From Acidimicrobiales bacterium (GTDB lineage: Bacteria; Actinomycetota; Acidimicrobiia; Acidimicrobiales; Bog-793): DNA of 64,000 nt. Positions 9,702 to 21,194 of this stretch are shown piece after piece (the stretch's first letter is position 1; every line of letters begins with the position of its first letter). The position numbers and the translations under genes were made by a program. The stretch is taken from positions 1-64,000 of the forward strand of contig DATGLP010000029.1 of NCBI GenBank assembly GCA_035294085.1, in the 5' to 3' direction. The notes below the pieces were generated by a model. The model was not told the DNA's origin, did not search any database, and worked only from the letters and a program-made list of their open reading frames with translations.

Positions 9702-11090
9702 CTAGCCCTCGGTGGGGACGACCGCGCGAACCACCGTCCCGGCGCCGGGCGAGGAGCGCAGCTCGAGGCGCCCGCCGAGCAGCACCGCCCGCTCGCGCAT
9801 CCCGATCACGCCGAGGTGGGCCCCGAGCTCGTCGAGATCGGCGGGCGAGAACCCGCGCCCGTCGTCTGCGACGGCGAGGTCGACGCTCGCTGGGTCGAAG
9901 CGGACGCTGATCCGAACGTGGCTGGCGGCGGCGTGGCGAGCCGCGTTCCGCACGGCCTCCTGGGCGATGCGGAACACGCCGAGCTCGACCTCCGCGTGCA
10001 GGCGTCGCTCGCGGCCGTCGACGGCGAGGTGCGTCGTGGGCCCGTCTTCCTCTTCGAGCTCGGCGAGCATGCTGCGCAGGGCGGCGACGAGACCGAGCTG
10101 GTCGAGCGCCGGCGGGCGCAGCCCCCGGGCCAGCCCCCGCAGGCAGTCCGCGACCTGCAGGGTCTGCAGGCGCGCCGCGACGAGGCCACCGGCGATCGCC
10201 TCGGGGAGCTCCGGTGCCTCGGCGAGGGTCTCGAGGCACCTGTTGAGGTGCAGGACCTGCTGGAGCGGCTCGTCGTGGAGCTCGCGGGCGAGCCGTCCAC
10301 GCTGCTCCTCCTCCGCCTTCACGACGAGCTCGGCGTAGTGGCGCACGCGGCGCTGCTCGGACCGCTCCTCGGTCACGTCGACGAGCAGGATCTGGACCGG
10401 CGCGCTCGTCGCGCTCGGCGTGACGACGCGCACCTGGTAGTCGCGCCCGCCGGGCGCCGAGACGACCCATCCGGAGCCCTCGTCCGGCTCGGGCGGGCTG
10501 CCGAGCAGGTCGGTGGCGGGGCGCCCGATGAGTCCGTCCCCGAGGAGCGCCGCGGCGGCCGGATTGGCGTCTTGGATGCTCCAGCCGTCGTCGAGGACGA
10601 GGATCGGCGCCGCATTGGCGTCGAAGAGCTGCCGGTAGCGTGCCTCGGCGGCGAGCTGGCGGCGGACGGCCGACTGCGCGCGCGCGTGGGAGAGGCGTTC
10701 GGCCTCGATGTGCCGCCCGACGAAGATCGCGACGGCGTCCACGAGCACGAGGCTGACGAGGTCGTTGCCGACGTGGCCGCGGTCGTGGGGCAGGAGCAGG
10801 TCGGGGAGCCACAGCAGCGTCGCCCAGACACCGGTGGCGGCGGAGCCGGACAAGCCGTAGCGCAAGGCCGCGTAGCCGACCGGGAGGATGAGCAGCGCGA
10901 CCGGGATGCCCTCGGGGAACGCGCGCGTCTCGAGCGAGGAGGTGAGATCGACGCCGAGGTGCGTGGCCGCGAGCGCGAGCACCGCCGCCTGGAGGGCCCA
11001 GAAGCGGGGATCGCGAAGCGGCGGGTGCAGCGCCCGGCGGAAGACCGTGGCGAGGTCAGCGCCGCGGCAGTCCGACGTGCCGTTCCTCAT
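9702..11090 (-). CDS. NarL-family sensor histidine kinase with PAS domain
   Basis: About 462 aa. The N-terminal third has several hydrophobic segments (WALQAAVLALAATHLGV, IPVALLILPVGYAALRYG, VWATLLWLPDLL, LVSLVLVDAVAIFVG), so it is an integral membrane sensor. A PAS-like domain follows (YRQLFDANAAPILVLDD). The HisKA_3 dimerisation helix RGRLARELHDEPLQQVLHL carries the phosphorylated histidine, and the HATPase part has NAARHA, DDGRGF and GVIGMRERA. It phosphorylates a NarL-type regulator, presumably that encoded just upstream. The ATG at 11090 overlaps the end of the regulator gene by 35 bases; no better start was found. The signal is unknown. Confidence 0.88.
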   Translation of the reverse strand: MRNGTSDCRGADLATVFRRALHPPLRDPRFWALQAAVLALAATHLGVDLTSSLETRAFPEGIPVALLILPVGYAALRYGLSGSAATGVWATLLWLPDLLLPHDRGHVGNDLVSLVLVDAVAIFVGRHIEAERLSHARAQSAVRRQLAAEARYRQLFDANAAPILVLDDGWSIQDANPAAAALLGDGLIGRPATDLLGSPPEPDEGSGWVVSAPGGRDYQVRVVTPSATSAPVQILLVDVTEERSEQRRVRHYAELVVKAEEEQRGRLARELHDEPLQQVLHLNRCLETLAEAPELPEAIAGGLVAARLQTLQVADCLRGLARGLRPPALDQLGLVAALRSMLAELEEEDGPTTHLAVDGRERRLHAEVELGVFRIAQEAVRNAARHAAASHVRISVRFDPASVDLAVADDGRGFSPADLDELGAHLGVIGMRERAVLLGGRLELRSSPGAGTVVRAVVPTEG

Positions 11091-12489
11091 GGTCGACCAG
11101 GTGGGTGGCCGCGTACAGGGCTGCCTCGGTCCTCGAGGCGAGGCCGAGCTTCGCCCGCAGGTTCGAGACGTACCCCTCGATTGTCCGGGTCCCGAGACCG
11201 AGCTCGACGGCGATCTCGCGGTTCGTGAGCCCGCGTCCGAGCAGACGGAGGACGGACGTCTCGCGCCGCGTGAGGGGCGAGCGTGCATCTCGCGGGTCGG
11301 CCCGCCAGCGGCGCGCGAGCCGGCGGGAGATCGCCCGGTCGAGGACGAACGTGCCGCTCGCGACGGCGCGCACGGCGTCGACGAGCTCGCGCCCCGAGCT
11401 CGTCTTCAGCAGGTACCCGGCGACGGCGACTTCGAGCGCCTCGACGACGTAGGCGTAGTCGTCGTAGGCGCTCACGATGAGGACGCGCAGGTCAGGGAAC
11501 CGCTCGGCGGCGAGGCGGGCGAGCGCCAAGCCGCTCAGCCCCGGGAGGTTCACGTCGATCAGCGCGACGTCGGGACGGAGGTGGTCGAGCAGTTCGAGCG
11601 CGTCCTCGGCGGTGCCCGTGGCGCCGACGACTTCGAAGTCGCGCTCTCGCGCGAGGAGCTGGACGGTGCCGTCGCGCAGCAGCGCGTGGTCGTCGACGAT
11701 GAGGACGCGGATCCGCGGTGGCGGGTCGGGCGCGACCACACGGTGGTGCGTGGCGGCAAGCTCGGCGTGCTCCCAGGGGGTCGACCGGTGTTCACCGTCG
11801 GCCGTCGGGCGGATGATGGGTGCGTGACCAGGATCGCCAGCGAGGCCGCTGCGTTCGCCCTCCTCGCCTCGCTCGCCACCCTCGTCCTCTACGCAGCCGC
11901 TGCCGTGGCAGTCGCCCTCCTGGCCGTCTCGAGCGGCCTGCGGAGCAGGCACCTGCGCCGCGAGCTCGACCGAGTGCTGCGCGAGATCCTCGGGTCGGGC
12001 GAGCTGGCTGGCGGGCGGGGCCGCCGCTGAGCTCGCCTCGCCGACGCGCCCGGCGAGGGCGCCTCCGGGCGTAGCGAGCGCCGCCTCGAGGGTCGTGGCG
12101 CCGAGCACCTGGCGGAGGGCCTGCGCGGCAGCGTTGAAGGTCCGCTGCACCGAGCCGCCGGCCTCGCCGAGCGGCGGTGGGTCGGGCGTCGCGGGGCGCG
12201 GCCGCTGACGCCCGCCGAGGGCGCCCTCGGCCGCCTCGACGACCTCGAGCAGCGTTATGGCAGCCGGCGAGCGCGAGAGCCAGTAGCCACCGCCCTTGCC
12301 CGCCTTCGAGCGCACGAGACCCGCTCGCACGAGGTCGGCGAGGACCTGCGAGGCGAAGGCGCGCGGCAGGCCGGCCTCGGCCGCCACCTCGCGGATCTTG
12401 CGCCCCTGCCCTCCTCGCGCCGCGCTCGCGAGGCACACCGCGGCCCGCAGTGCGTAGTCGCCACGCCTCGAGAGGGTGAGGTCCACCAA
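11056..12489 (-). CDS. Continuous ORF: Rrf2-type repressor joined to NarL-type response regulator
   Basis: One 477-codon frame without an internal stop. Residues 1-140 are an Rrf2 winged helix (LSRRGDYALRAAVCLA, FASQVLADLVRAGLVRSKAGKGGGYWLSR). The cluster-binding cysteines of IscR/NsrR are absent. Residues 141-255 are low-complexity, and antisense to them lies a 68-aa frame at 11824-12030. Residues 258-380 are a receiver (IVDDHALLRDG, phospho-acceptor D312 in LIDVNLPG, K in YLLKTSSG), and the end is a LuxR helix-turn-helix (LTRRETSVLRLLGRGLTNREIAVELGL). Any ribosome starting at the TTG 12489 or GTG 12486 must read through to 11056 unless the assembly has a frameshift. The regulator may also be made separately from GTG 11739 (227 aa). 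The paired kinase gene follows. Confidence 0.7.
   Translation of the reverse strand: MVDLTLSRRGDYALRAAVCLASAARGGQGRKIREVAAEAGLPRAFASQVLADLVRAGLVRSKAGKGGGYWLSRSPAAITLLEVVEAAEGALGGRQRPRPATPDPPPLGEAGGSVQRTFNAAAQALRQVLGATTLEAALATPGGALAGRVGEASSAAAPPASQLARPEDLAQHSVELAAQVPAPQAARDGQEGDCHGSGCVEDEGGERGEEGERSGLAGDPGHAPIIRPTADGEHRSTPWEHAELAATHHRVVAPDPPPRIRVLIVDDHALLRDGTVQLLARERDFEVVGATGTAEDALELLDHLRPDVALIDVNLPGLSGLALARLAAERFPDLRVLIVSAYDDYAYVVEALEVAVAGYLLKTSSGRELVDAVRAVASGTFVLDRAISRRLARRWRADPRDARSPLTRRETSVLRLLGRGLTNREIAVELGLGTRTIEGYVSNLRAKLGLASRTEAALYAATHLVDHEERHVGLPRR
11824..12030 (+). CDS. Possible small single-helix membrane protein, antisense to the Rrf2-regulator linker
   Basis: A 68-aa frame from GTG 11824. 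One hydrophobic helix (AAAFALLASLATLVLYAAAA and a few more, residues 8-35) is followed by a basic amphipathic helix (LRSRHLRRELDRVLREILG). By-eye third-position GC is about 90 percent, against about 77 percent for the opposite frame over the same bases, which favours this strand as coding. The ribosome site is weak. It is tail-to-tail overlapping with a longer regulator frame, so one of the two readings of this segment is probably not translated. No family recognised. Confidence 0.4.
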   Translation: MTRIASEAAAFALLASLATLVLYAAAAVAVALLAVSSGLRSRHLRRELDRVLREILGSGELAGGRGRR

Positions 12490-12508
12490 ACAAAAGTTTA
12501 GTGAGTAG

Positions 12509-12525
12509 CTTGACGTTAGATCAAG
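12509..12525. promoter_or_regulatory. Inverted repeat CTTGA-N7-TCAAG, likely operator
   Basis: A perfect 5-bp inverted repeat overlapping the -35 box of the polyferredoxin operon, 20 bases upstream of the divergent Rrf2 gene. It resembles an FNR/CRP-type half-site pair (TTGAT-N4-ATCAA) with one extra spacer base, and could also be an Rrf2 operator. Its position would let a bound protein block both promoters. Confidence 0.5.
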
Positions 12526-12538
12526 GGATCAATAATCT
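12510..12538 (+). promoter_or_regulatory. Sigma-70-type promoter of the polyferredoxin operon
   Basis: TTGACG (12510-12515), a 17-base spacer, then TAATCT (12533-12538). This is the best-matching housekeeping promoter I saw in the window, and is in an AT-rich island. The expected transcript start is near 12545, giving a leader of about 36 bases with GGGAGGAGC before the ATG at 12581. On the other strand TTGATC and TAAACT with 18-base spacing would start a nearly leaderless transcript for the Rrf2 gene. Confidence 0.65.
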
Positions 12539-12580: not shown

Positions 12581-14173
12581 ATGACGGTCCTCGACGACAG
12601 CGCCGCGGTGCGAACGATCACGACGGGCGTGCCCGCTGGTGACGAGCGGGCTCCCGACCCGGTCAACGCCGCGATCCACCTCCGCCCCAGGCGGCGAGAC
12701 GGCGTCGGGGAGCGCTTCGCCGCGACGGATCCCGCGAGCGAGTTCGAGCTGACGCGCTTCCCACGGGTCGCCACCCTCGTGCGCAGCCGGCGATTCCAGT
12801 TCTTCCTGATCCTCCCGAACCAGATCATCTTCTGGCTCGTCATCTTCGTGGGGATCCTCGGCACGGTCGACCCCGTCCTCAACTTCGGCACCGCCATCAC
12901 CTGGTTCGTGTGGTTCTGCCTCGTGTTCGTGCTCATGGTCGTCGTCGGACGAGCCTGGTGCGCGATGTGCCCGTTCGGCGGGTTCGCCGAGTGGATCCAG
13001 CGTCGAGCGCTGTGGCAGCGGGTTCAGCGCCAGCTCGGGCTCGGGCGGAAGATGCCGGCGCGCGTCGCCCAGTACGGGCTGCTGCTGTCGGTGGCGTCCT
13101 TCCTCGGCCTCACCTTCGTCGAGGAGTACTTCAACATCGCGGGTCCGGGGTCTCCGGTCGCAACGAGCATCATGGTCCTCGGGATCGTCGCGACGGCGCT
13201 GGCCTTCTTCCTCGTGTTCGAGCGGCGGACCTTCTGCCGCTACATCTGCCCGCTGTCTGCGCTCATCGGATCGGTCGGGGCGATGGGCTCGGTGGCCGGG
13301 TTCCGGACACGAGACCGCGACCGCTGCCTCGAGTGCAAGACGAAGGACTGCATGCGAGGCGGCACGCGCGGCTACGGGTGCCCCTGGTACACGTGGCCGG
13401 GCAGCGCGGACTCGAACCTGACGTGCGGGCTGTGCAGCGAGTGCTACAAGGCGTGCCCGTCGGGCAACGTGGGGCTCTTCCTCCAGAAGCCGCTGACGTC
13501 GGTGATCGCTCCGGTCAGGCGCCGGGCAGACGTCGCCTGGGCGGTCGCGATCCTGCTCGGCCTCGTCGTCTTCCAGCAGGTGAACGCGCTGGGCTGGTAC
13601 TCGACGCTCGATGCCCGGCTGAACAGCGCGCTGCACTTCCCCGGCTACCCGAACCCCGTCGACTACTTCGGCATCATCGCCGTGGTCGCCGGGGCGCTCG
13701 CGGCGCTCGCGGCGCTCGCGAGCCGCGCGCTGCTCGACGGATCGGCCGTCGGGTCGAGCACCGGCGGCGATTTCATGACGCGCACCACACGCTTTCGCCG
13801 GTTCTTCCTCCCCGCCTCCTACGGCCTCATCCCGGTCGTTGGCGCCGACTACTTCGCGCGGCAGCTCCCGAAGTTCTTCCAGCACTCACCGGCCGTGGTG
13901 CCCGCCGTGCTGAACATCTTCGGGCACGGTGCCGTCGCCGGGAGGCTCGGGCACGTCGCGCTCTTGCCGGTCGGCGGGATCGTCACGGCGCAGGTCGTGG
14001 TGATCGGCCTCGGCACGCTCGGTGCGATGTGGTCGAGCTGGCGCATCGCGGGACGAGACCTGGCGCCCGTGGCTCGCCGCCCGCTCGCCGTGCGGGTGGC
14101 GACCACCTCGTTCGCGCTCTCGCTCGGCCTCGGCCTCGCTGTCCTGTACGTCCTCATGCACGGCGCCAACTAG
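12581..14173 (+). CDS. NapH/NosR/CcoG-like membrane polyferredoxin
   Basis: The 530-aa protein has several transmembrane helices (from FFLILPNQIIFWLVIFVGI) and cysteine motifs of the NapH/NosR/RdxA family: WCAMCPFGG, RRTFCRYICPLSAL, then RCLECKTKDC and CGLCSECYKACPSGN on the soluble face, enough for about two [4Fe-4S] clusters plus the two CxxxCP elements. The C-terminal half adds more helices, with an Ala-Leu repeat at GALAALAALASRALL. It should move electrons between the membrane quinone pool and soluble ferredoxin-like partners. AUG at 12581 follows GGGAGGAGCGAC. It is first in an operon with the ferredoxin-GltD-flavodoxin fusion and divergent from the Rrf2-regulator ORF. It is not NapH itself, since no nap genes are present. 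Confidence 0.82.
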   Translation: MTVLDDSAAVRTITTGVPAGDERAPDPVNAAIHLRPRRRDGVGERFAATDPASEFELTRFPRVATLVRSRRFQFFLILPNQIIFWLVIFVGILGTVDPVLNFGTAITWFVWFCLVFVLMVVVGRAWCAMCPFGGFAEWIQRRALWQRVQRQLGLGRKMPARVAQYGLLLSVASFLGLTFVEEYFNIAGPGSPVATSIMVLGIVATALAFFLVFERRTFCRYICPLSALIGSVGAMGSVAGFRTRDRDRCLECKTKDCMRGGTRGYGCPWYTWPGSADSNLTCGLCSECYKACPSGNVGLFLQKPLTSVIAPVRRRADVAWAVAILLGLVVFQQVNALGWYSTLDARLNSALHFPGYPNPVDYFGIIAVVAGALAALAALASRALLDGSAVGSSTGGDFMTRTTRFRRFFLPASYGLIPVVGADYFARQLPKFFQHSPAVVPAVLNIFGHGAVAGRLGHVALLPVGGIVTAQVVVIGLGTLGAMWSSWRIAGRDLAPVARRPLAVRVATTSFALSLGLGLAVLYVLMHGAN

Positions 14174-14183
14174 GAGGTCGATC

Positions 14184-16343
14184 ATGTCGATCACGGCGGC
14201 CATCCCCACCCGTGCCGAGGAGCCGGCGATGGCTCTGGAGGTCACGGTGGTGAAGGAGCGCTGCGCGGGTTGCCAGGAGTGCGTCGTCCGCTGCCCGACC
14301 GAGGCGCTGCGGATGGACGTCGCAACGTGGACCGTCGTCGCGGACGACGACGCGTGCGTGGGCTGCCGCCAGTGCGAGCGGACCTGTCCGTTCGCGGCCA
14401 TCCGCGTGCAGGGCGCACCGCGCGTCGCCGCGCGGACGCCTGCGCGTGCCAGCCAGCCGGCACAGCTCGTGGGCGACCTGAGCGAGACGCGCCACGGCTT
14501 CGCGAGCCTCGACGAGGCCCGCCGGGAGGCGGCGCGCTGTCTCGCGTGCCCAGACCCGACCTGCGTGCGCGGCTGCCCCGCCCACAACGACATCCCCGGC
14601 TTCATCGCGGCGATCGCGGCCGGGGAGCTCGGAGCTGCGCACGAGGTGCTCCGGCGCACGACCGTGCTCCCCGACGTGTGCAGCCGCGTGTGCGACCAGG
14701 CGATCCAGTGCGAGGGCGCCTGCTCCTGGTCGCTCGCGGGGGGGTCGCCGGTGGCCATCGGGGCGCTCGAGCGGTTCGTGGCCGACAGCGCGCCCGTTCC
14801 GCCCCCGACGCGCCGCAGCGCGCGCGGGCGCTCCCTGTCGGTGGCCATCGTCGGCTCCGGTCCCGCGGCCATCGCCGCGGCATGGGAGCTCGTGGAGCAC
14901 GGCGCCGCGGTGACGGTGCTCGAGCGGTCGTCGAAGCCGGGAGGGCTCCTCGGGTGGGGCATCCCGGCCTTCACGCTCCCTCGCGCGGTCGCGGGCCGGG
15001 CCTGGGACCAGCTCCTCGCCGCGGGGGTGGCGCTGCGGTGCGGCGTCGAGGTCACCCCCGCCGACCTGGACGACCTCTTACAGCGGTACGACGCCGTCGT
15101 CCTCGCGTTCGGCGCCGGCGAGGCGCTCCGCCTGCCGGTGCCTGGCGGCGACCTCGACGGCGTCGTCGACGCGACGGCCTTCCTGACGCGAGCCGAGGAG
15201 GCGCTTCGCGAGGGCGGCGCCCTGCCGGGGCTCGACCCGGCGAGGGCCTCGCGCGACGGCGCGCCTCCGCTCGTGCTCGTGATCGGCGGTGGCAACACCG
15301 CGATGGACGTCGCCCGCAGCGCGCGCCGGTTCGGGGCCCGCGCGCTGTGCGTCGAGTGGATGGACCGGCGCTTCGCACCGGTGCGACCGGACGAGCTCGC
15401 GGAGGCAGAGGCCGAGGGGGTGGAGGTGCGCTTCGCGACGACGCTCGCCGGCCTGGAGGGCGAGGGGGGTCGGGTCAACGCCGCGCTCCTCGGCCGCACG
15501 CTGCAGCGCCACGCCGGCGAGCGGCCGAAGCTCGTTCCGGGCTCCTCCGAGCGCGTTCGTGTCGACCTGGTGGTCATGGCCATGGGCTACCGAAACGACC
15601 CGGTCTTCTCCGCGGTGTTGCCCGGCATCCCCTTGCGGCGGATCGACGAGCGGCTCGCCGATCGGACGTGGCAGGCGAGCGGCCTCCTCGCGGTCCCGGC
15701 TCCGACCTTCGCTCGCGGCCGGCCCGTCGGCCGGCTCGCGCTCGGGCGCGAGGCGGGGCGCGTCGCGGCAGGCCTCCCGCGGCGCGACCGGGTCTGGGTC
15801 GTCGGCGACGCGCTCGTCGGTCCGTCCACGGTGGTCGAGGCGATGGCGCACGGACGGCGAGCCGCCCAGGCGATCCTCGCCCGCCAGCCGTCGCGCCCAG
15901 GCGCATCTCGCCGGGGAGGGCCGGCGGCGATCCTCGTCGCGGTCGAGAGCCGCGCCGGCAGGACCCGTGCACGCGCCGAGCAGCTCGCCGAGGTGCTTCG
16001 GCGCGACGGCGCCCAGGTCGCCGTCGCGCCGCTCGACGAGGTCGGCGCAGCGCAGCTCGCCTGGGCCGACCTCCTCGTCGTCGGGACGTGGGTCGAGGGG
16101 GCCGTGGTCGCGAACGTCCGCGCCGCGCGCGCCACGAGGCGATGGATCGCGAGCCTCGGCGAGCTCGGCGGCCTCCCGGTCGGGATCTTCTGCACCTACG
16201 GTCTGCACCCACGAGGGGCTCTCGCCGAGATGCGGCGTTCCTTCGAGGCACGCGGCGCGCGGGTCGTCGCCGAGGCGGCGTTCGGTCCGCGCTCGCGTGC
16301 CGATGTCGACGAGTACGCGCGGGAGCTCGTGCGCTGCAACTGA
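14184..16343 (+). CDS. Fusion of 2x[4Fe-4S] ferredoxin, GltD-like FAD/NAD(P) oxidoreductase and flavodoxin domain
   Basis: 719 aa in three parts. Residues 20-76 are a bacterial ferredoxin (C27, C30, C33, C37 and C58, C61, C64, C68). Residues 100-570 resemble the glutamate synthase small subunit: a cysteine-rich Fe-S part (CLACPDPTCVRGCPAHNDIP, CSRVCDQAIQCEGAC), FAD site VAIVGSGPAAIAAAWEL, NADPH site VIGGGNTAMDVARSARR, and WVVGDALVGPSTVVEAMAHG. The last 140 residues are flavodoxin-like (AILVAVESRAGRTRARAEQL, LLVVGTWVEG, GIFCTYGLHPRG). No glutamate synthase large subunit is nearby. It could exchange electrons between NADPH, ferredoxin and flavin, feeding the membrane polyferredoxin 10 bases upstream. 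AGGAGGT at 14172-14178 supports the ATG. The flavodoxin fusion is unusual. Confidence 0.85.
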   Translation: MSITAAIPTRAEEPAMALEVTVVKERCAGCQECVVRCPTEALRMDVATWTVVADDDACVGCRQCERTCPFAAIRVQGAPRVAARTPARASQPAQLVGDLSETRHGFASLDEARREAARCLACPDPTCVRGCPAHNDIPGFIAAIAAGELGAAHEVLRRTTVLPDVCSRVCDQAIQCEGACSWSLAGGSPVAIGALERFVADSAPVPPPTRRSARGRSLSVAIVGSGPAAIAAAWELVEHGAAVTVLERSSKPGGLLGWGIPAFTLPRAVAGRAWDQLLAAGVALRCGVEVTPADLDDLLQRYDAVVLAFGAGEALRLPVPGGDLDGVVDATAFLTRAEEALREGGALPGLDPARASRDGAPPLVLVIGGGNTAMDVARSARRFGARALCVEWMDRRFAPVRPDELAEAEAEGVEVRFATTLAGLEGEGGRVNAALLGRTLQRHAGERPKLVPGSSERVRVDLVVMAMGYRNDPVFSAVLPGIPLRRIDERLADRTWQASGLLAVPAPTFARGRPVGRLALGREAGRVAAGLPRRDRVWVVGDALVGPSTVVEAMAHGRRAAQAILARQPSRPGASRRGGPAAILVAVESRAGRTRARAEQLAEVLRRDGAQVAVAPLDEVGAAQLAWADLLVVGTWVEGAVVANVRAARATRRWIASLGELGGLPVGIFCTYGLHPRGALAEMRRSFEARGARVVAEAAFGPRSRADVDEYARELVRCN

Positions 16344-16547: not shown

Positions 16548-17492
16548 TCAGCGGCGCGCTCGAGTCGGACGCCGGCTGGGCGCGGGCCGCTCCAGCTGGC
16601 TGGCCAGGCGCCGGAGGAAGGCACGCAGGATCTGGCGCGTCTCGCGCTCGCGCTCGGTCCGGACGGGCGCCGGGTACTCGTCGTGCCAGGTGCCCTCGAC
16701 CCGCAGCTCGCTTCGATCGGCGTCGAGTGCCGCGACGGTCGCGTCTGCCTCGAAGCGGCACGCTCGCGCACCGCCGATCCGCCAGGCGAGCAGGTAGCGC
16801 GCGCTGTCCTCCGTCGCGGGGTCGTCGGCGGCGACCGGGGCGAGCGAGACCTCGACCGGTGCGGGGCGAGGCCGGGCGCTGCGGCTCGGCTGCTTCCCGT
16901 CTGCTGCGGCGCCGAGGGACCCGGCGAGGACGCTCCCGAGGTGACCCGCGACCCGCGCCAGCGCCACCTGGGCGTCGCGGAAGGACAGCTCGACCTGGAC
17001 GTGATCCGAGCAGGCGTAGGCCGAAGGGTGGAGACGGTGCGAGTCGTCGGGGACGGGGTAGCTGCCCGCCGTGATGGCCGTGTCCCTCGCCGCGACCTCG
17101 GCGAGGGAGGTCCTCGCCAGGAGCTCGCGCAGCGCCACGGTCGCCTCCGTCCAGGTTGCATGCAGCGGACACACCGCGTCCCAGCGGCACGGACCGTCGC
17201 CGAGGGCGCACCGCTCGGCGTGCAGCGGTCCCTCGCCGGCTTCTATGACCTCGAGGACCGTGATCTGGTCCGGCGACCGGCTGAGCCGGAAGCCGCCGGC
17301 GCGCCCTGCCTTCGATGTCGCGAGCCCGGCCCGCACGAGGTCGGCGAGGATCTGCGACGCGAACGTCGCGGGCACCTCGGTGTCCGCCACGATCTCCCGG
17401 ATCTTGCGAGCGACTCCTGCATCGTGGCCCTTGGCAAGCGCGATCGCCGAGCGCATCACGTAGTCGCCTCGCTTCGACAACGTCAGGTCCAT
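16548..17492 (-). CDS. Rrf2 family regulator with three cysteines and a 165-residue C-terminal extension
   Basis: 314 aa, twice the usual 140-160 aa. Residues 1-145 are a typical Rrf2 repressor (MDLTLSKRGDYVMRSAIALA, FASQILADLVRAGLATSKAGRAGGF) with the cluster segment RCALGDGPCRWDAVCPLH holding three cysteines, as in NsrR/IscR-type [Fe-S] sensors of NO or cluster status. Residues about 150-314 form an extra domain (VQVELSFRDAQVALARVAGHL, ARYLLAWRIGGARACRFEADATVAALD) that looks like an alpha/beta ligand-binding fold, perhaps SRPBCC-like, but I do not recognise it. The ATG at 17492 begins exactly at the Rrf2 consensus; a longer frame to 17627 is not protein-like. It diverges from the radical SAM gene across an AT-rich control region. 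Confidence 0.82.
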   Translation of the reverse strand: MDLTLSKRGDYVMRSAIALAKGHDAGVARKIREIVADTEVPATFASQILADLVRAGLATSKAGRAGGFRLSRSPDQITVLEVIEAGEGPLHAERCALGDGPCRWDAVCPLHATWTEATVALRELLARTSLAEVAARDTAITAGSYPVPDDSHRLHPSAYACSDHVQVELSFRDAQVALARVAGHLGSVLAGSLGAAADGKQPSRSARPRPAPVEVSLAPVAADDPATEDSARYLLAWRIGGARACRFEADATVAALDADRSELRVEGTWHDEYPAPVRTERERETRQILRAFLRRLASQLERPAPSRRPTRARR

Positions 17493-17626
17493 GGCTGGGA
17501 GGTCAGCTCCAAGGCTCGAGGTTCTGCACTCGCCCAAGCGCAACCCTAACGCGGGCGCGATCCGCTGTTGCGCTCCGGGCCGATCGGCGGGGGTGCGGCT
17601 CCCGCAGCCTTCGTGTAGTGTTCGCA

Positions 17627-17660
17627 ACTATACGTTAAGTAGTAGACATCTCTTACTATG
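17627..17660. promoter_or_regulatory. AT-rich control region with TAGTA-N9-TACTA inverted repeat
   Basis: In a region of very high GC this stretch is about 60 percent AT. It holds an inverted repeat TAGTA (17640-17644) and TACTA (17654-17658), direct repeats of ACTAT (17628-17632 region and 17655-17659), and a -10-like TACTAT at 17654-17659. The position, 28 bases before the radical SAM start and upstream of the divergent Rrf2 gene, is right for an Rrf2 operator. Confidence 0.45.
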
Positions 17661-17686: not shown

Positions 17687-18949
17687 GTGACCGCAGCGCC
17701 GTACGCGTCGGGGGTCGGCCGGGCAACGGAGCAGGCGCGCGCGCGATCGCCCCGCCAGTCGGTGGAACGGACGGACCTCTCCCCGGTCGGGCGGGTGCGG
17801 CGCCTCCGCTTCGACGTGCAGGTCCGTCCGTTCCTCGTCCTGTTCGAGCTGACGCGCGCGTGCGACCTTGCCTGCCTCCACTGCCGGGCGGAGGCGGTGC
17901 CGCGCCGTCACCGCGAGGAGCTCACGACCGCGGAGGCCCGCGCCGTCCTCGACGACCTCGCGCAGCTCGGCCCGCCTCGACCGGTCGTCGTCTTCACCGG
18001 TGGGGATCCGCTCCAGCGTCCCGATCTGGCCGCCCTCGTCCGGCACGCGTCACGCGCCGGGCTGGCGGCCGCGGTCTCACCTGCAGGGACGCCCCGTGCC
18101 ACCAAGGGGCGCCTCTCGGCGCTGCGTGCGGCCGGTGTCCGCACGGTCTCCTTCTCGCTCGACGGTTCGAGCGCGAGCGTCCACGACGGCTTCCGGCAGG
18201 TGGCCGGGTCGTTCGCCTGGACCCTGGCAGCGTGCAGATCGGCGCGGTCGGCAGGCCTTCGGCTCCAGGTGAACACGACCGTCAGTCGGGAGACGGTGCT
18301 CGAGCTGCCGGGGATCTGCCGGCTCGTCGCCGAGCTCGGCGCGGACCTGTGGAGCGTCTTCTTCCTCGTGCCGACCGGCCGCGGCCGCGTCCTCCAGGCG
18401 CTCTCCGCCCGAGAGACCGAGGATGTCCTGGCCATCCTCTACGACGCGGCGGCATTCGTCCCGCTGAAGACGACGGAGGCGCCCGCGTTCCGGCGCCTCG
18501 TCCTTCGGGGGGGGCCAGCGACCGGAGGACTGCCGCCAGGCCCGCTCTACCGGGCGCTGCGTCGTCGCTTCGACCGGATCATCGCCGAGGGGTTCGCCGG
18601 CAACGGGCACGCGACGCGCACGCGCTCGCCGCTCGCGCTCGGCGACGGCAGGGGCGTGGTCTTCGTCTCCCATCGCGGCGACGTCCAGCCGAGCGGATTC
18701 CTGCCGCTCGTCGCCGGCAACGTCCGTCAGGCCACGCTGTCGAGCATCTACGCGTGTTCGCCGCTGCTGCGCACGATGCGCGATCCCGCGGCTCTCCAGG
18801 GTCGCTGCGGCCGCTGCGAGCTGCGGGAGGTGTGCGGTGGCTCTCGGGCGCAGGCGTTCGCGCGCCTCGGCGATCCGCTCGGCGAGGATCCGACGTGTCC
18901 GTACGAGCCACCGCCCCCGGCACGGGTCGGCGCGGGCTCGGGGAGGTAG
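17687..18949 (+). CDS. Radical SAM/SPASM protein (AhbD/NirJ-like group)
   Basis: 420 aa. The radical SAM cluster motif is C59-x3-C63-x2-C66 in TRACDLACLHCRAEA, followed by the SAM-binding FTGGDPLQRPD and SFSLDGSSASVHDGFRQ. The C-terminal SPASM-type region has GRCGRCELREVCGGSRAQAF and a last cysteine in DPTCPYEPPP, so auxiliary [4Fe-4S] binding is likely. Closest in architecture to heme/heme d1 pathway enzymes (AhbC, AhbD, NirJ) and peptide-modifying SPASM enzymes; the substrate is unknown. GTG at 17687 follows GGGGAGCGACG. It lies 3 bases before a second radical SAM gene and is divergent from a cysteine-bearing Rrf2 regulator, so expression may follow Fe-S or NO status. Confidence 0.85.
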   Translation: MTAAPYASGVGRATEQARARSPRQSVERTDLSPVGRVRRLRFDVQVRPFLVLFELTRACDLACLHCRAEAVPRRHREELTTAEARAVLDDLAQLGPPRPVVVFTGGDPLQRPDLAALVRHASRAGLAAAVSPAGTPRATKGRLSALRAAGVRTVSFSLDGSSASVHDGFRQVAGSFAWTLAACRSARSAGLRLQVNTTVSRETVLELPGICRLVAELGADLWSVFFLVPTGRGRVLQALSARETEDVLAILYDAAAFVPLKTTEAPAFRRLVLRGGPATGGLPPGPLYRALRRRFDRIIAEGFAGNGHATRTRSPLALGDGRGVVFVSHRGDVQPSGFLPLVAGNVRQATLSSIYACSPLLRTMRDPAALQGRCGRCELREVCGGSRAQAFARLGDPLGEDPTCPYEPPPPARVGAGSGR

Positions 18950-18952
18950 GCG

Positions 18953-20512
18953 ATGGGATTGCGCATCCGCTTGGTCGAGCCGCGACCGGCCGGTCACAAC
19001 GTCTACGACCTCGCCCTGCTGCCGCGCCTCGGGCTGCCACTCATGGGCCGTCTGCTCGCCGACGCCGGCCACGACGTCCGCATCTACTGCGAGGTGCTGG
19101 CCCCGGTCGACCTCGAGGACTGCCTGCGCGCCGACCTCGTCGGGATCTCCTCGACGACCGCCACCGCCCCCGCCGCGTACCGCCTCGCGGACCTGCTCGC
19201 CTCCGCGGGCGTCCCCGTCGTCCTCGGTGGTCCCCACGTCACGTTCTGCGCCGATGAGGGGCTGGCCCACGCGCCCTACGTCGTGCGAGGGGAGGGTCAG
19301 CAGACGATCGTCGAGCTCGTGTCGTGCATCGAGCGCGACGAGGATCCGTCAGGCGTGCTCGGCCTCTCCTACCTCGATGGTGCCGGCGAGCCGCGCCACA
19401 ACCCGGACCGGCGGCGCGCGACGCAGGCCGAGTTCGAGGCGCTCCCGATCCCTGACTTGCGCTTGATCGAGGGCCACGCGCGCCTCGTGACGAAGCCGAT
19501 CATGACCCAGTGGGGCTGTCCGTTCGACTGCGAGTTCTGCTCGGTCACGGCGCTGTTCTCCCGGGCGGTCCGCTACCGGCGGACCGACCAGGTGATCGCC
19601 GAGCTGGGCGAGCTCGGCGCACAGCGGGTCTTCTTCCACGATGACAACTTCGTCGTGAACAAGCGCCGTAGCGCCGAGCTCTTCGAGGCAATGCTCAGGA
19701 GAGACCTGTGTCCCACCTGGTTCGCGCAGGTGCGGGCCGCAACTGCTCTGCGTTCTCCGGCGCGACCCGAGGCCGACCACGACTTCCTGGCGCTGATGCG
19801 GCGCGCGGGTTGCCAGATGGTGATGATCGGCGTCGAGACGATCACCGACGAGGGCCTCGCCAGCATCGGCAAGCACCAGAGCGTCGACACGATCGAGCGA
19901 GCGGTCCGCGCCTTCCACGAGCACGGCATCGCCGTGCACGGGATGTTCGTCGCCGGCCTCGACGGCGACACGTCCTCGAGCGCCGAGGCCGCCGCGCACT
20001 TCGCCCGCCGCCTCGGCATCGACACCTTCCAGCTGATGGTGGAGACCCCACTGCCGGGTACGGCGCTCTGGCGGCGCGTGGGCGACCAGGAGCGCCTGCT
20101 GAGCGGGGACTGGTCGCTGTTCGACGGGCATCACGTCGTCATGCGGCCCGCCCGCATGACGCCGCTCGAGCTGCAGCTCGGCGTGCTCGAGGCCATGCGC
20201 CAGTTCTACTCGTGGCCGAGGATCCTCGCCTCGGGGATGGTGGGTGGGCTCCGCCGGCTGCCCGACCTCGCTGCAGCCTGCCGCCCGGCACTGCTGGGTC
20301 GCGTGCCTGCCATCTCCCGGGCCGTCCGGTCCCGGCGCTTCGAGGAGGTCGTGCCCGTGCTGCGGGCGATCCTCCCGCCCGAGCGGTGGCATCGTCTGGC
20401 AACGGATCTCTGGCTGCCCGCCCTGCGCTTCTACGCTCGGCGCCAGCTCGCTGCCTGGCGCCGGCAGGAGCAGTCCCGACGCCACCTCGAGTTCCTCGCG
20501 TCGCTTCCGTAG
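18953..20512 (+). CDS. B12-binding-domain radical SAM protein
   Basis: 519 aa. Residues 1-140 form a Rossmann-like cobalamin-binding domain of the BchE/HpnJ type (RLGLPLMGRLLADAGHDV, LVGISSTTATAPAAYRLAD, VVLGGPHVTF), without a DxHxxG motif. The radical SAM cluster is C189-x3-C193-x2-C196 in GCPFDCEFCSV, and later MVMIGVETITDEGLASIGKH and GMFVAGLDGD are typical. The C-terminal region is basic and helical. Such enzymes perform ring closures, methylations or rearrangements of lipids and tetrapyrroles; the substrate here is unknown. GGGAGGTAGGCG precedes the ATG. It is in one operon with the SPASM enzyme. Confidence 0.88.
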   Translation: MGLRIRLVEPRPAGHNVYDLALLPRLGLPLMGRLLADAGHDVRIYCEVLAPVDLEDCLRADLVGISSTTATAPAAYRLADLLASAGVPVVLGGPHVTFCADEGLAHAPYVVRGEGQQTIVELVSCIERDEDPSGVLGLSYLDGAGEPRHNPDRRRATQAEFEALPIPDLRLIEGHARLVTKPIMTQWGCPFDCEFCSVTALFSRAVRYRRTDQVIAELGELGAQRVFFHDDNFVVNKRRSAELFEAMLRRDLCPTWFAQVRAATALRSPARPEADHDFLALMRRAGCQMVMIGVETITDEGLASIGKHQSVDTIERAVRAFHEHGIAVHGMFVAGLDGDTSSSAEAAAHFARRLGIDTFQLMVETPLPGTALWRRVGDQERLLSGDWSLFDGHHVVMRPARMTPLELQLGVLEAMRQFYSWPRILASGMVGGLRRLPDLAAACRPALLGRVPAISRAVRSRRFEEVVPVLRAILPPERWHRLATDLWLPALRFYARRQLAAWRRQEQSRRHLEFLASLP

Positions 20513-20793: not shown

Positions 20794-20997
20794 TCAGTCA
20801 CCACGCTGCCTTCCCAACCTGCCGGCCTGCCGCCAGATCGATCCCAGCGTACCCTTCGGCACCTCGTCACTCGGCTTGCCTGCCACCGTCATCGTTCGCG
20901 GCCGGTCGGGATCGCGGAACCGGCGGCGAGAGCCCACCTGTCTGTCCAGGCGCCAGCCGTCACGCTCCAGGGTACGGATGACGTCTCGCACCTTCAC
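20794..20997 (-). pseudogene. HicA-like toxin relic without catalytic histidine
   Basis: 67 aa from a GTG at 20997 (an upstream start to 21045 is possible). The pattern VKVRDVIRTLERDGWRLDRQ, GSRRRFRDPDRP, TMTVAGKPSDEVPKGTLGSI and WRQAG matches the HicA/YcfA dsRBD-like mRNA interferase family across its length. In active HicA the segment is GSHxxF, where the histidine is catalytic; here it is GSRRRF, with CGC in place of CAC or CAT. No ribosome site and no adjacent HicB antitoxin were seen. It is most likely an inactivated remnant, though a non-catalytic role is possible. Confidence 0.6.
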
Positions 20998-21121
20998 GAG
21001 TTCAAGGTACGGGATCGATGTGACGATCTCCTCGAGCCGTCGCACCCGCTGCGCGACCGCCGCTCTCCGATTGCGCGCCGTGGAAGGGAGTCCCCAGCGA
21101 AGTCGCTGTTCGTCGGGTCGG

Positions 21122-21194
21122 CGCCCCCGGCAGGACTTGAACCTGCGACACGCGGTTTAGGAAACCGCTGCTCTATCCCCTGAGCTACGGGGGC
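21122..21194 (-). tRNA. tRNA-Arg (anticodon CCU)
   Basis: Read on the minus strand: acceptor GCCCCCG pairs with CGGGGGC, the D-arm is GCTCAGGGGATAGAGC, the anticodon stem GCGGT/ACCGC encloses the loop TTCCTAA with anticodon CCT, and the T-arm is GCAGGTTCAAGTCCTGC. About 73 bases with discriminator G and no encoded CCA. It decodes AGG arginine codons. Confidence 0.93.

Follow-up and report, generated by a model that had tools for sequence, protein, structure and literature searches.

A conserved gene pair of Acidimicrobiales joins a NapH-like membrane protein to a ferredoxin–GltD-like–flavodoxin fusion and is a candidate link between NADH and menaquinone

The closest described counterparts of the locus reported here include two kinds of protein. 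One is the NapH type of membrane protein, with a four-helix core, two Cys-Pro motifs and, after the core, two [4Fe-4S] motifs whose clusters lie on the cytoplasmic side; NapH needs its first Cys motif in order to interact with NapF (PMC5928378), and NosR and RdhC are wider kin. The other comprises NfnB, GltD, DPD and DsrL, in which a flavin adenine dinucleotide (FAD) module is combined with two [4Fe-4S] clusters. AegA and YgfT of E. coli carry a ferredoxin domain ahead of such a GltD-like module and have a proposed role in electron supply linked to nicotinamide adenine dinucleotide (phosphate), NAD(P)H. In this study, we analyzed two adjacent open reading frames, gene 1 and gene 2, at positions 12581–16343 of a 64,000-nucleotide stretch (the window) of contig DATGLP010000029.1 from an Acidimicrobiales bacterium (assembly GCA_035294085.1), whose genome comprises 2.42 Mb in 31 contigs. 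Gene 1 encodes a NapH-like membrane polyferredoxin, and gene 2 a single chain in which an eight-Cys ferredoxin, a GltD-like FAD/NAD module and a flavodoxin follow one another. The building blocks are known and the arrangement is new; no description of the operon was found in the open-access literature. We propose, with slightly less than even confidence, that the pair is an Rrf2-controlled NADH-to-menaquinone redox valve at the inner membrane face. Conserved across an order of acid-tolerant actinobacteria, it would connect NADH with the quinone pool in a way not recognised before, add another case of nucleotide change at the YRR site of the GltD-like family, and provide an Rrf2 regulon with a visible, directly testable promoter box.

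The initial annotation had read the domains of both frames correctly; the coordinates and the ferredoxin/GltD/flavodoxin order were confirmed (Table 1). Gene 1 matched Pfam Fer4_5 twice and no other Pfam domain, and in gene 2 a Fer4_7 match (residues 26–72) precedes the Fer4_20 and Pyr_redox_2 matches. A Shine-Dalgarno-like AGGAGG ahead of gene 2 overlaps the stop codon of gene 1; since the homologues of gene 2 begin near residue 17–20, ATG 14229 is an alternative to the start at ATG 14184. All 16 ferredoxin/GltD Cys residues of gene 2 were invariant in an alignment of 92 homologues, and 12 Cys residues of gene 1 were invariant among 79 sequences; the gene pair is therefore no chance pattern. 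A scan of named genomes, many of whose contigs are short, yielded 80 loci, and in every one of them gene 1 lay directly upstream of gene 2, which bears out the earlier view of a NapH/NosR-like membrane partner.

The best curated matches of gene 2 were gltA/GltD models, the highest at 266.8 bits against a cut-off of 471.75, and it reached 210.5 of 1003 bits with the AegA model and 184.6 of 1154 bits with the YgfT model; the two E. coli proteins match its first 570 residues at approximately 30% identity. We know of no flavodoxin within the AegA/YgfT chain, unlike in gene 2. PDB matches (to 2e-68) relate gene 2 to NfnB, GltD, DPD and DsrL, with which it shares the FAD module and two [4Fe-4S] clusters, and from which it differs by having D/E-W-M/L in place of YRR, no N5-arginine, and an additional 8-Fe ferredoxin and a flavodoxin. 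Because the two genes fall outside the curated definitions of NapH, GltD, NfnB and AegA, the operon is set apart from the known classes, and the best reading is of an NAD(H) dehydrogenase resembling AegA and DsrL, with a flavodoxin built in, that feeds a membrane partner of the NapH type.

The YRR motif of NfnB binds the phosphate of NADP, and DsrL shows an NAD-or-NADP switch at the same site (PMC7596348). When gene 2 was aligned to NfnI of Pyrococcus (5jca), YRR corresponded to E391-W392-M393, and the D/E-W-M/L pattern was found in about 90 of 93 homologues, the first residue being acidic in 91 of 93 and the second Trp in 90 of 93. This replacement makes NADH the likely nucleotide, and gene 2 is accordingly predicted from its residues to use NAD(H), probably, rather than the NADPH of the initial annotation. 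Arg residues (RR) at this site were confined to the divergent loci L117 and L120, whose enzymes may thus use NADPH.

The flavodoxin part of gene 2 scored slightly under the Pfam cut-off (24.2 against 27 bits). An AlphaFold model built from the C-terminal 159 residues and 53 relatives displayed a (beta-alpha)5 arrangement (predicted local distance difference test, pLDDT, 90; predicted template-modelling score 0.85), and Foldseek matched the model to solved flavodoxins at E ~5e-8; receptor matches in the same list are probably crystallisation fusions to flavodoxin, as at least one title says. The C-terminal domain suggested earlier thus does have a flavodoxin fold. In the homologues, the putative flavin mononucleotide (FMN) loops (P-loop, GTW-EG and FCTY) retain conserved residues. 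Fold and FMN loops are common to the short-chain flavodoxins; in contrast to these, the domain is tethered to an NAD(H) dehydrogenase in a layout like that of cytochrome P450 reductase, from which it differs in turn by a partner of the GltD rather than the FNR type. To our knowledge, there is no earlier case of a GltD-like protein fused to a flavodoxin. The flavodoxin part was present in 79 of the 80 named loci, and of the forms lacking it (L113–L117, L120, L134 and L096) some branched basally and others here and there in a quickly built, long-branched tree, on which its presence and absence take a minimum of four changes; the core gene pair is probably older than the fusion, with the flavodoxin then lost a few times. 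One flavodoxin-less pair, at 62–67% identity (L096 8386–11683), is found in a metagenome-assembled genome (MAG) labelled Chloroflexi, by either transfer or misbinning.

Gene 1 shares with NapH the core, the two Cys-Pro motifs, the two [4Fe-4S] motifs and their cytoplasmic side. It differs in its first motif (CX2CP in place of CX3CP), in roughly five additional helices, where the segment DYFARQLPK is nearly invariant, in its score (35.6 bits against a model cut-off of 213), and in being without a NapG/NapA partner, there being no nap gene among the conserved neighbours; unlike NosR and RdhC, it has no outer FMN-binding domain, as Pfam gives only Fer4_5. Lys and Arg residues averaged 7.6, 13.7, 5.2 and 3.1 per loop on the Cys-bearing side and 0 to 0.9 on the opposite side, a charge pattern indicating that the Fe-S sites, with all 12 invariant Cys residues, face the cytoplasm. 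The outer loops displayed no cofactor motif and nothing redox-active. Helix 7 contains a nearly invariant G-A-D-Y-F-A-R-Q-L-P-K stretch, which is a candidate quinone site, and menB, menA and menD, genes for menaquinone, were found above cut-off on the contig of the window. As noted at the outset, no terminal reductase gene (nap, nos or nir) lies close to the operon, and a link to the quinone pool remains the likeliest role of the pair.

Nearly all of the 80 named loci belong to Acidimicrobiales or to unassigned Actinomycetes MAGs, and many of the isolate names, as we read them, seem to point to acid mine drainage or to acidic soils. Of 296 genomes drawn evenly from the class, 16 carried gene 2; genome G014 has the fusion. 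An Rrf2 gene was located near 56 of the 80 loci; for a NarL-type response regulator the count was 44, and for a kinase 42. No other neighbour was widely conserved. The initial annotation had suggested that the operon perhaps supplies the radical S-adenosylmethionine (SAM) enzymes downstream, whose genes in the window (17687–20512, +) code first for a TIGR04053 radical SAM/SPASM protein, which scores above its cut-off, and then for a B12-binding radical SAM protein. This linkage was rejected on neighbourhood counts: TIGR04053 is near the operon in about three of some 90 loci (the window, L039 and L123; only L039 among the 80), and the B12 radical SAM gene in none other than the window. Of the proposed conduit between NADPH, low-potential carriers and quinone, then, the quinone link has stood, and NADPH and the radical SAM supply have not. 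Glutamate synthase genes are not among the conserved neighbours, the scanned neighbours of distant gene 1 relatives in the phylum were not redox partners, and plasmid records held only AegA/YgfT/GltD and lone 4Fe-4S proteins. An association with autotrophy was discarded (RuBisCO in only 1 of 24 operon-bearing relatives), as was one with NrfD (20/24 with the operon against 19/36 without, p 0.03; not significant within the family). The operon as a replacement of complex I was likewise rejected, complex I being present in 58 of 60 relatives.

The region upstream of gene 1 points to regulation by Rrf2. Among 74 upstream regions, 30 carried the double box A(A/G)GTnTA-N8-10-CTTGAC, compared with a mean of 0.005 and a maximum of 1 after shuffling; it was present in 25 of the 36 loci with a divergent Rrf2 gene against 5 of the 38 without. 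TTGAC followed 17–19 bases on by TAnnnT was found in 35 of the 74 (shuffle mean 0.5; TTGACG-17-TAATCT in the window). These counts are not independent, since related sequences inherit such boxes, but the elements are short and intergenic. The left box may be the -10 element of the divergent Rrf2 gene, perhaps leaderless. The three-Cys Fe-S motif, C-X6-C-X5-C, was kept in 60–64 of about 68 Rrf2 copies. RsrR, a Streptomyces Rrf2 protein with a redox-active [2Fe-2S] cluster, has sites at nuo and at a quinone oxidoreductase gene (PMC5015018); the resemblance is to a regulator that is encoded divergently from its main target, has sites in the intergenic region between the two and acts on NADH metabolism, whereas the DNA box and the target gene are different here. 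Rrf2 and the NarL-type regulator share one open frame in the window (11056–12489, -) with no stop between them, and are probably two genes, a fusion being possible. The second Rrf2 protein carries a C-terminal extension of about 170 residues (16548–17060, -) without a Pfam match, which is found in 19 of the 80 loci.

Table 1. Features of the gene pair and its regulatory surroundings in the window
Feature	Position	Strand	Evidence
Gene 1: NapH-like membrane polyferredoxin, 530 aa; ~9 membrane helices, CX2CP + CX3CP, two [4Fe-4S] motifs, cytoplasmic by charge	12581–14173	+	domains, conservation, model, loop charge
Gene 2: 719-aa chain fusing ferredoxin, GltD-like and flavodoxin parts (alternative start 14229)	14184–16343	+	Pfam, neighbourhood, alignment
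8-Cys ferredoxin domain, aa 22–74; C27/30/33/37 and C58/61/64/68 invariant	14247–14405	+	Pfam, alignment
Fer4_20 domain, aa 103–203; C119/122/127/131 and C166/170/176/180 invariant; two further predicted [4Fe-4S] clusters	14490–14792	+	Pfam, alignment
GltD-like FAD/NAD(H) module, Pyr_redox_2 aa 219–474; T264 where NfnB has N5-arginine	14838–15605	+	Pfam, alignment
E391-W392-M393 at site of NfnB NADP-binding YRR; predicts NAD(H)	15354–15362	+	alignment; PMC7596348
C-terminal flavodoxin domain, aa 583–719; P-loop SRAGRT, GTWVEG and FCTYG loops conserved	15930–16340	+	profile score, alignment, AlphaFold, Foldseek
Conserved divergent promoter/operator: AAGTTTAG 12494–12501; CTTGAC 12509–12514; -35 TTGACG 12510–12515; 17-bp spacer; -10 TAATCT 12533–12538	12494–12538	+	upstream-region motif counts
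Divergent Rrf2-family regulator, N-terminal part of open frame 11056–12489, without the three Cys	12070–12489	-	Pfam, neighbourhood, Cys check
NarL-type response regulator, same open frame as Rrf2 gene; such a gene near about half of loci	11056–11739	-	domains, neighbourhood
PAS sensor histidine kinase partner, start uncertain	9702–11288	-	domains, neighbourhood
Second Rrf2 regulator, start probably near 17492, C-X6-C-X5-C; closer relative of the family's regulator	16548–17627	-	Pfam, neighbourhood, Cys check

Beyond the domain composition, gene pairing, cofactor ligands, flavodoxin fold, charge-based topology and promoter conservation shown above, we infer NADH use (from sequence), complex formation, the order and direction of electron transfer and the physiological role as follows. 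Both genes would encode a single redox module at the cytoplasmic face of the membrane, in which FAD in the GltD-like domain accepts a hydride from NADH and electrons then move singly through a chain of four [4Fe-4S] clusters. The GltD-like part and the N-terminal ferredoxin part would contribute two clusters each, and the tethered FMN flavodoxin would serve as an extra one-electron relay or store. The NapH-like protein would dock the gene 2 enzyme, for which the interaction of NapH with NapF is a precedent, and exchange electrons with menaquinone, so that the module oxidises NADH alongside complex I; it would be switched by Rrf2 Fe-S sensors and, in approximately half of the loci, also by the NarL-type two-component system. 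Since the downhill direction is from NADH to menaquinone, an NADH-oxidising valve is the most likely form. Several observations weigh against this proposal. Deducing NADH from an acidic residue applies a general rule and is not a test within this subfamily; with complex I so widespread among the relatives, a second NADH oxidase is not obviously needed; and since flavodoxin-less forms exist, the core reaction does not depend on the flavodoxin. In addition, the AlphaFold model of gene 1, with about nine membrane helices, is of moderate quality (pLDDT 71), Foldseek matched it to no solved membrane protein, and the divergent Rrf2 of the window lacks the three Cys residues that the second one has.

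An alternative to the NADH-oxidising valve, which we regard as unlikely though worth weighing, is that the tethered flavodoxin/ferredoxin receives electrons from quinol or NADH and forms a low-potential supply for enzymes of the cytoplasm, whether radical SAM or other. Low-potential donors are typically proteins such as 8-Fe ferredoxins and flavodoxins, and two genomes with the short form, G059 (G059:C66) and G287 (G287:C15), encode elsewhere a free flavodoxin of the same subfamily (G287 carries the long form as well); none was found in the short-form genomes G283, G134 and G214. A second NuoH-like gene, which here lies in a ferredoxin-containing Ehr-like complex, also co-occurs with the operon (19 of 24 operon-bearing against 6 of 36 other relatives; p 2e-6, 0.012 within the family, uncorrected for descent). 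However, no client gene is conserved nearby, the radical SAM counts being as low as stated, transfer from quinol to flavodoxin is uphill with no energy-coupling part seen, and a tethered flavodoxin makes a poor diffusible carrier. The more specific idea that a two-gene, NADH-driven, menaquinone-linked complex splits or stores electrons in the tethered flavodoxin, giving low-potential electrons without Rnf or FixABCX, is a long shot; if true, it would be the GltD-type counterpart of those systems in these acidophiles. True flavin-based bifurcation, with NADH electrons split between menaquinone and flavodoxin at an NfnB-like FAD, would draw on a fold that includes the bifurcating NfnB and on high- and low-potential acceptors that are both at hand. 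In NfnB, R201 shields N5 of the flavin, apparently through a hydrogen bond, and is regarded as making bifurcation possible (PMC10482914); the position is T264 in gene 2 and T/S/V/E, never Arg, in all 93 homologues. The glutamate near the proximal cluster is likewise replaced, by Ala or Ser in 90 of 93, a weaker point because GltS has the glutamate ligand and yet does not bifurcate (PMC8097209). On these residues, bifurcation is disfavoured and very improbable.

Another possibility is that the pair carries electrons through the membrane to a reductase or acceptor on its outer side, the way NapH, NosR or CcoG are thought to operate. Gene 1 shares the NapH core, a predicted secreted lipoprotein is encoded just upstream in the divergent relatives L117 and L120, and a DsrO/DsrP-like pair or an NrfD gene lies within approximately 1–6 kb in five loci. 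On the other hand, the cytoplasmic placement of all 12 Cys residues by charge argues against electron export, as do outer loops without a cofactor motif, and no reductase or outer partner is conserved; we consider this conduit improbable. That gene 2 is simply a glutamate synthase small subunit, or a catabolic enzyme of the AegA/YgfT type, is suggested by its best curated matches and by the 30% identity over 570 residues, and is hardly credible: all scores are far below the curated cut-offs, no purine genes are conserved nearby, and the GltB gene (G000:C19:52048) lies beside its own GltD on another contig than the operon. The glutamate synthase role was rejected on these grounds, and the refuting outcome named at the start, homologues routinely accompanying glutamate synthase, did not come true. 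The NADH-to-menaquinone valve is the reading we retain.

Several neighbouring arrangements are recorded here. At L117 (3601–11177), a predicted lipoprotein and a DsrO/DsrP-like FeS and NrfD pair precede a divergent short-form pair, and at L120 (from 7736 on) a similarly divergent short-form pair stands behind an LppX-like lipoprotein alone. NrfD genes within about 1–6 kb of the operon were seen in four more loci (L050, L067, L082 and L111). The Ehr-like complex (L148 9641–15051; G000:C28, ~40.6–46 kb) consists of a ferredoxin together with NuoH-like, antiporter-like, 30/49-kDa and 20-kDa-like subunits; its large subunit showed no NiFe cysteine motifs. Within the window, a HicA-like gene (20797–21194, -) adjoins tRNA-Arg(CCT).

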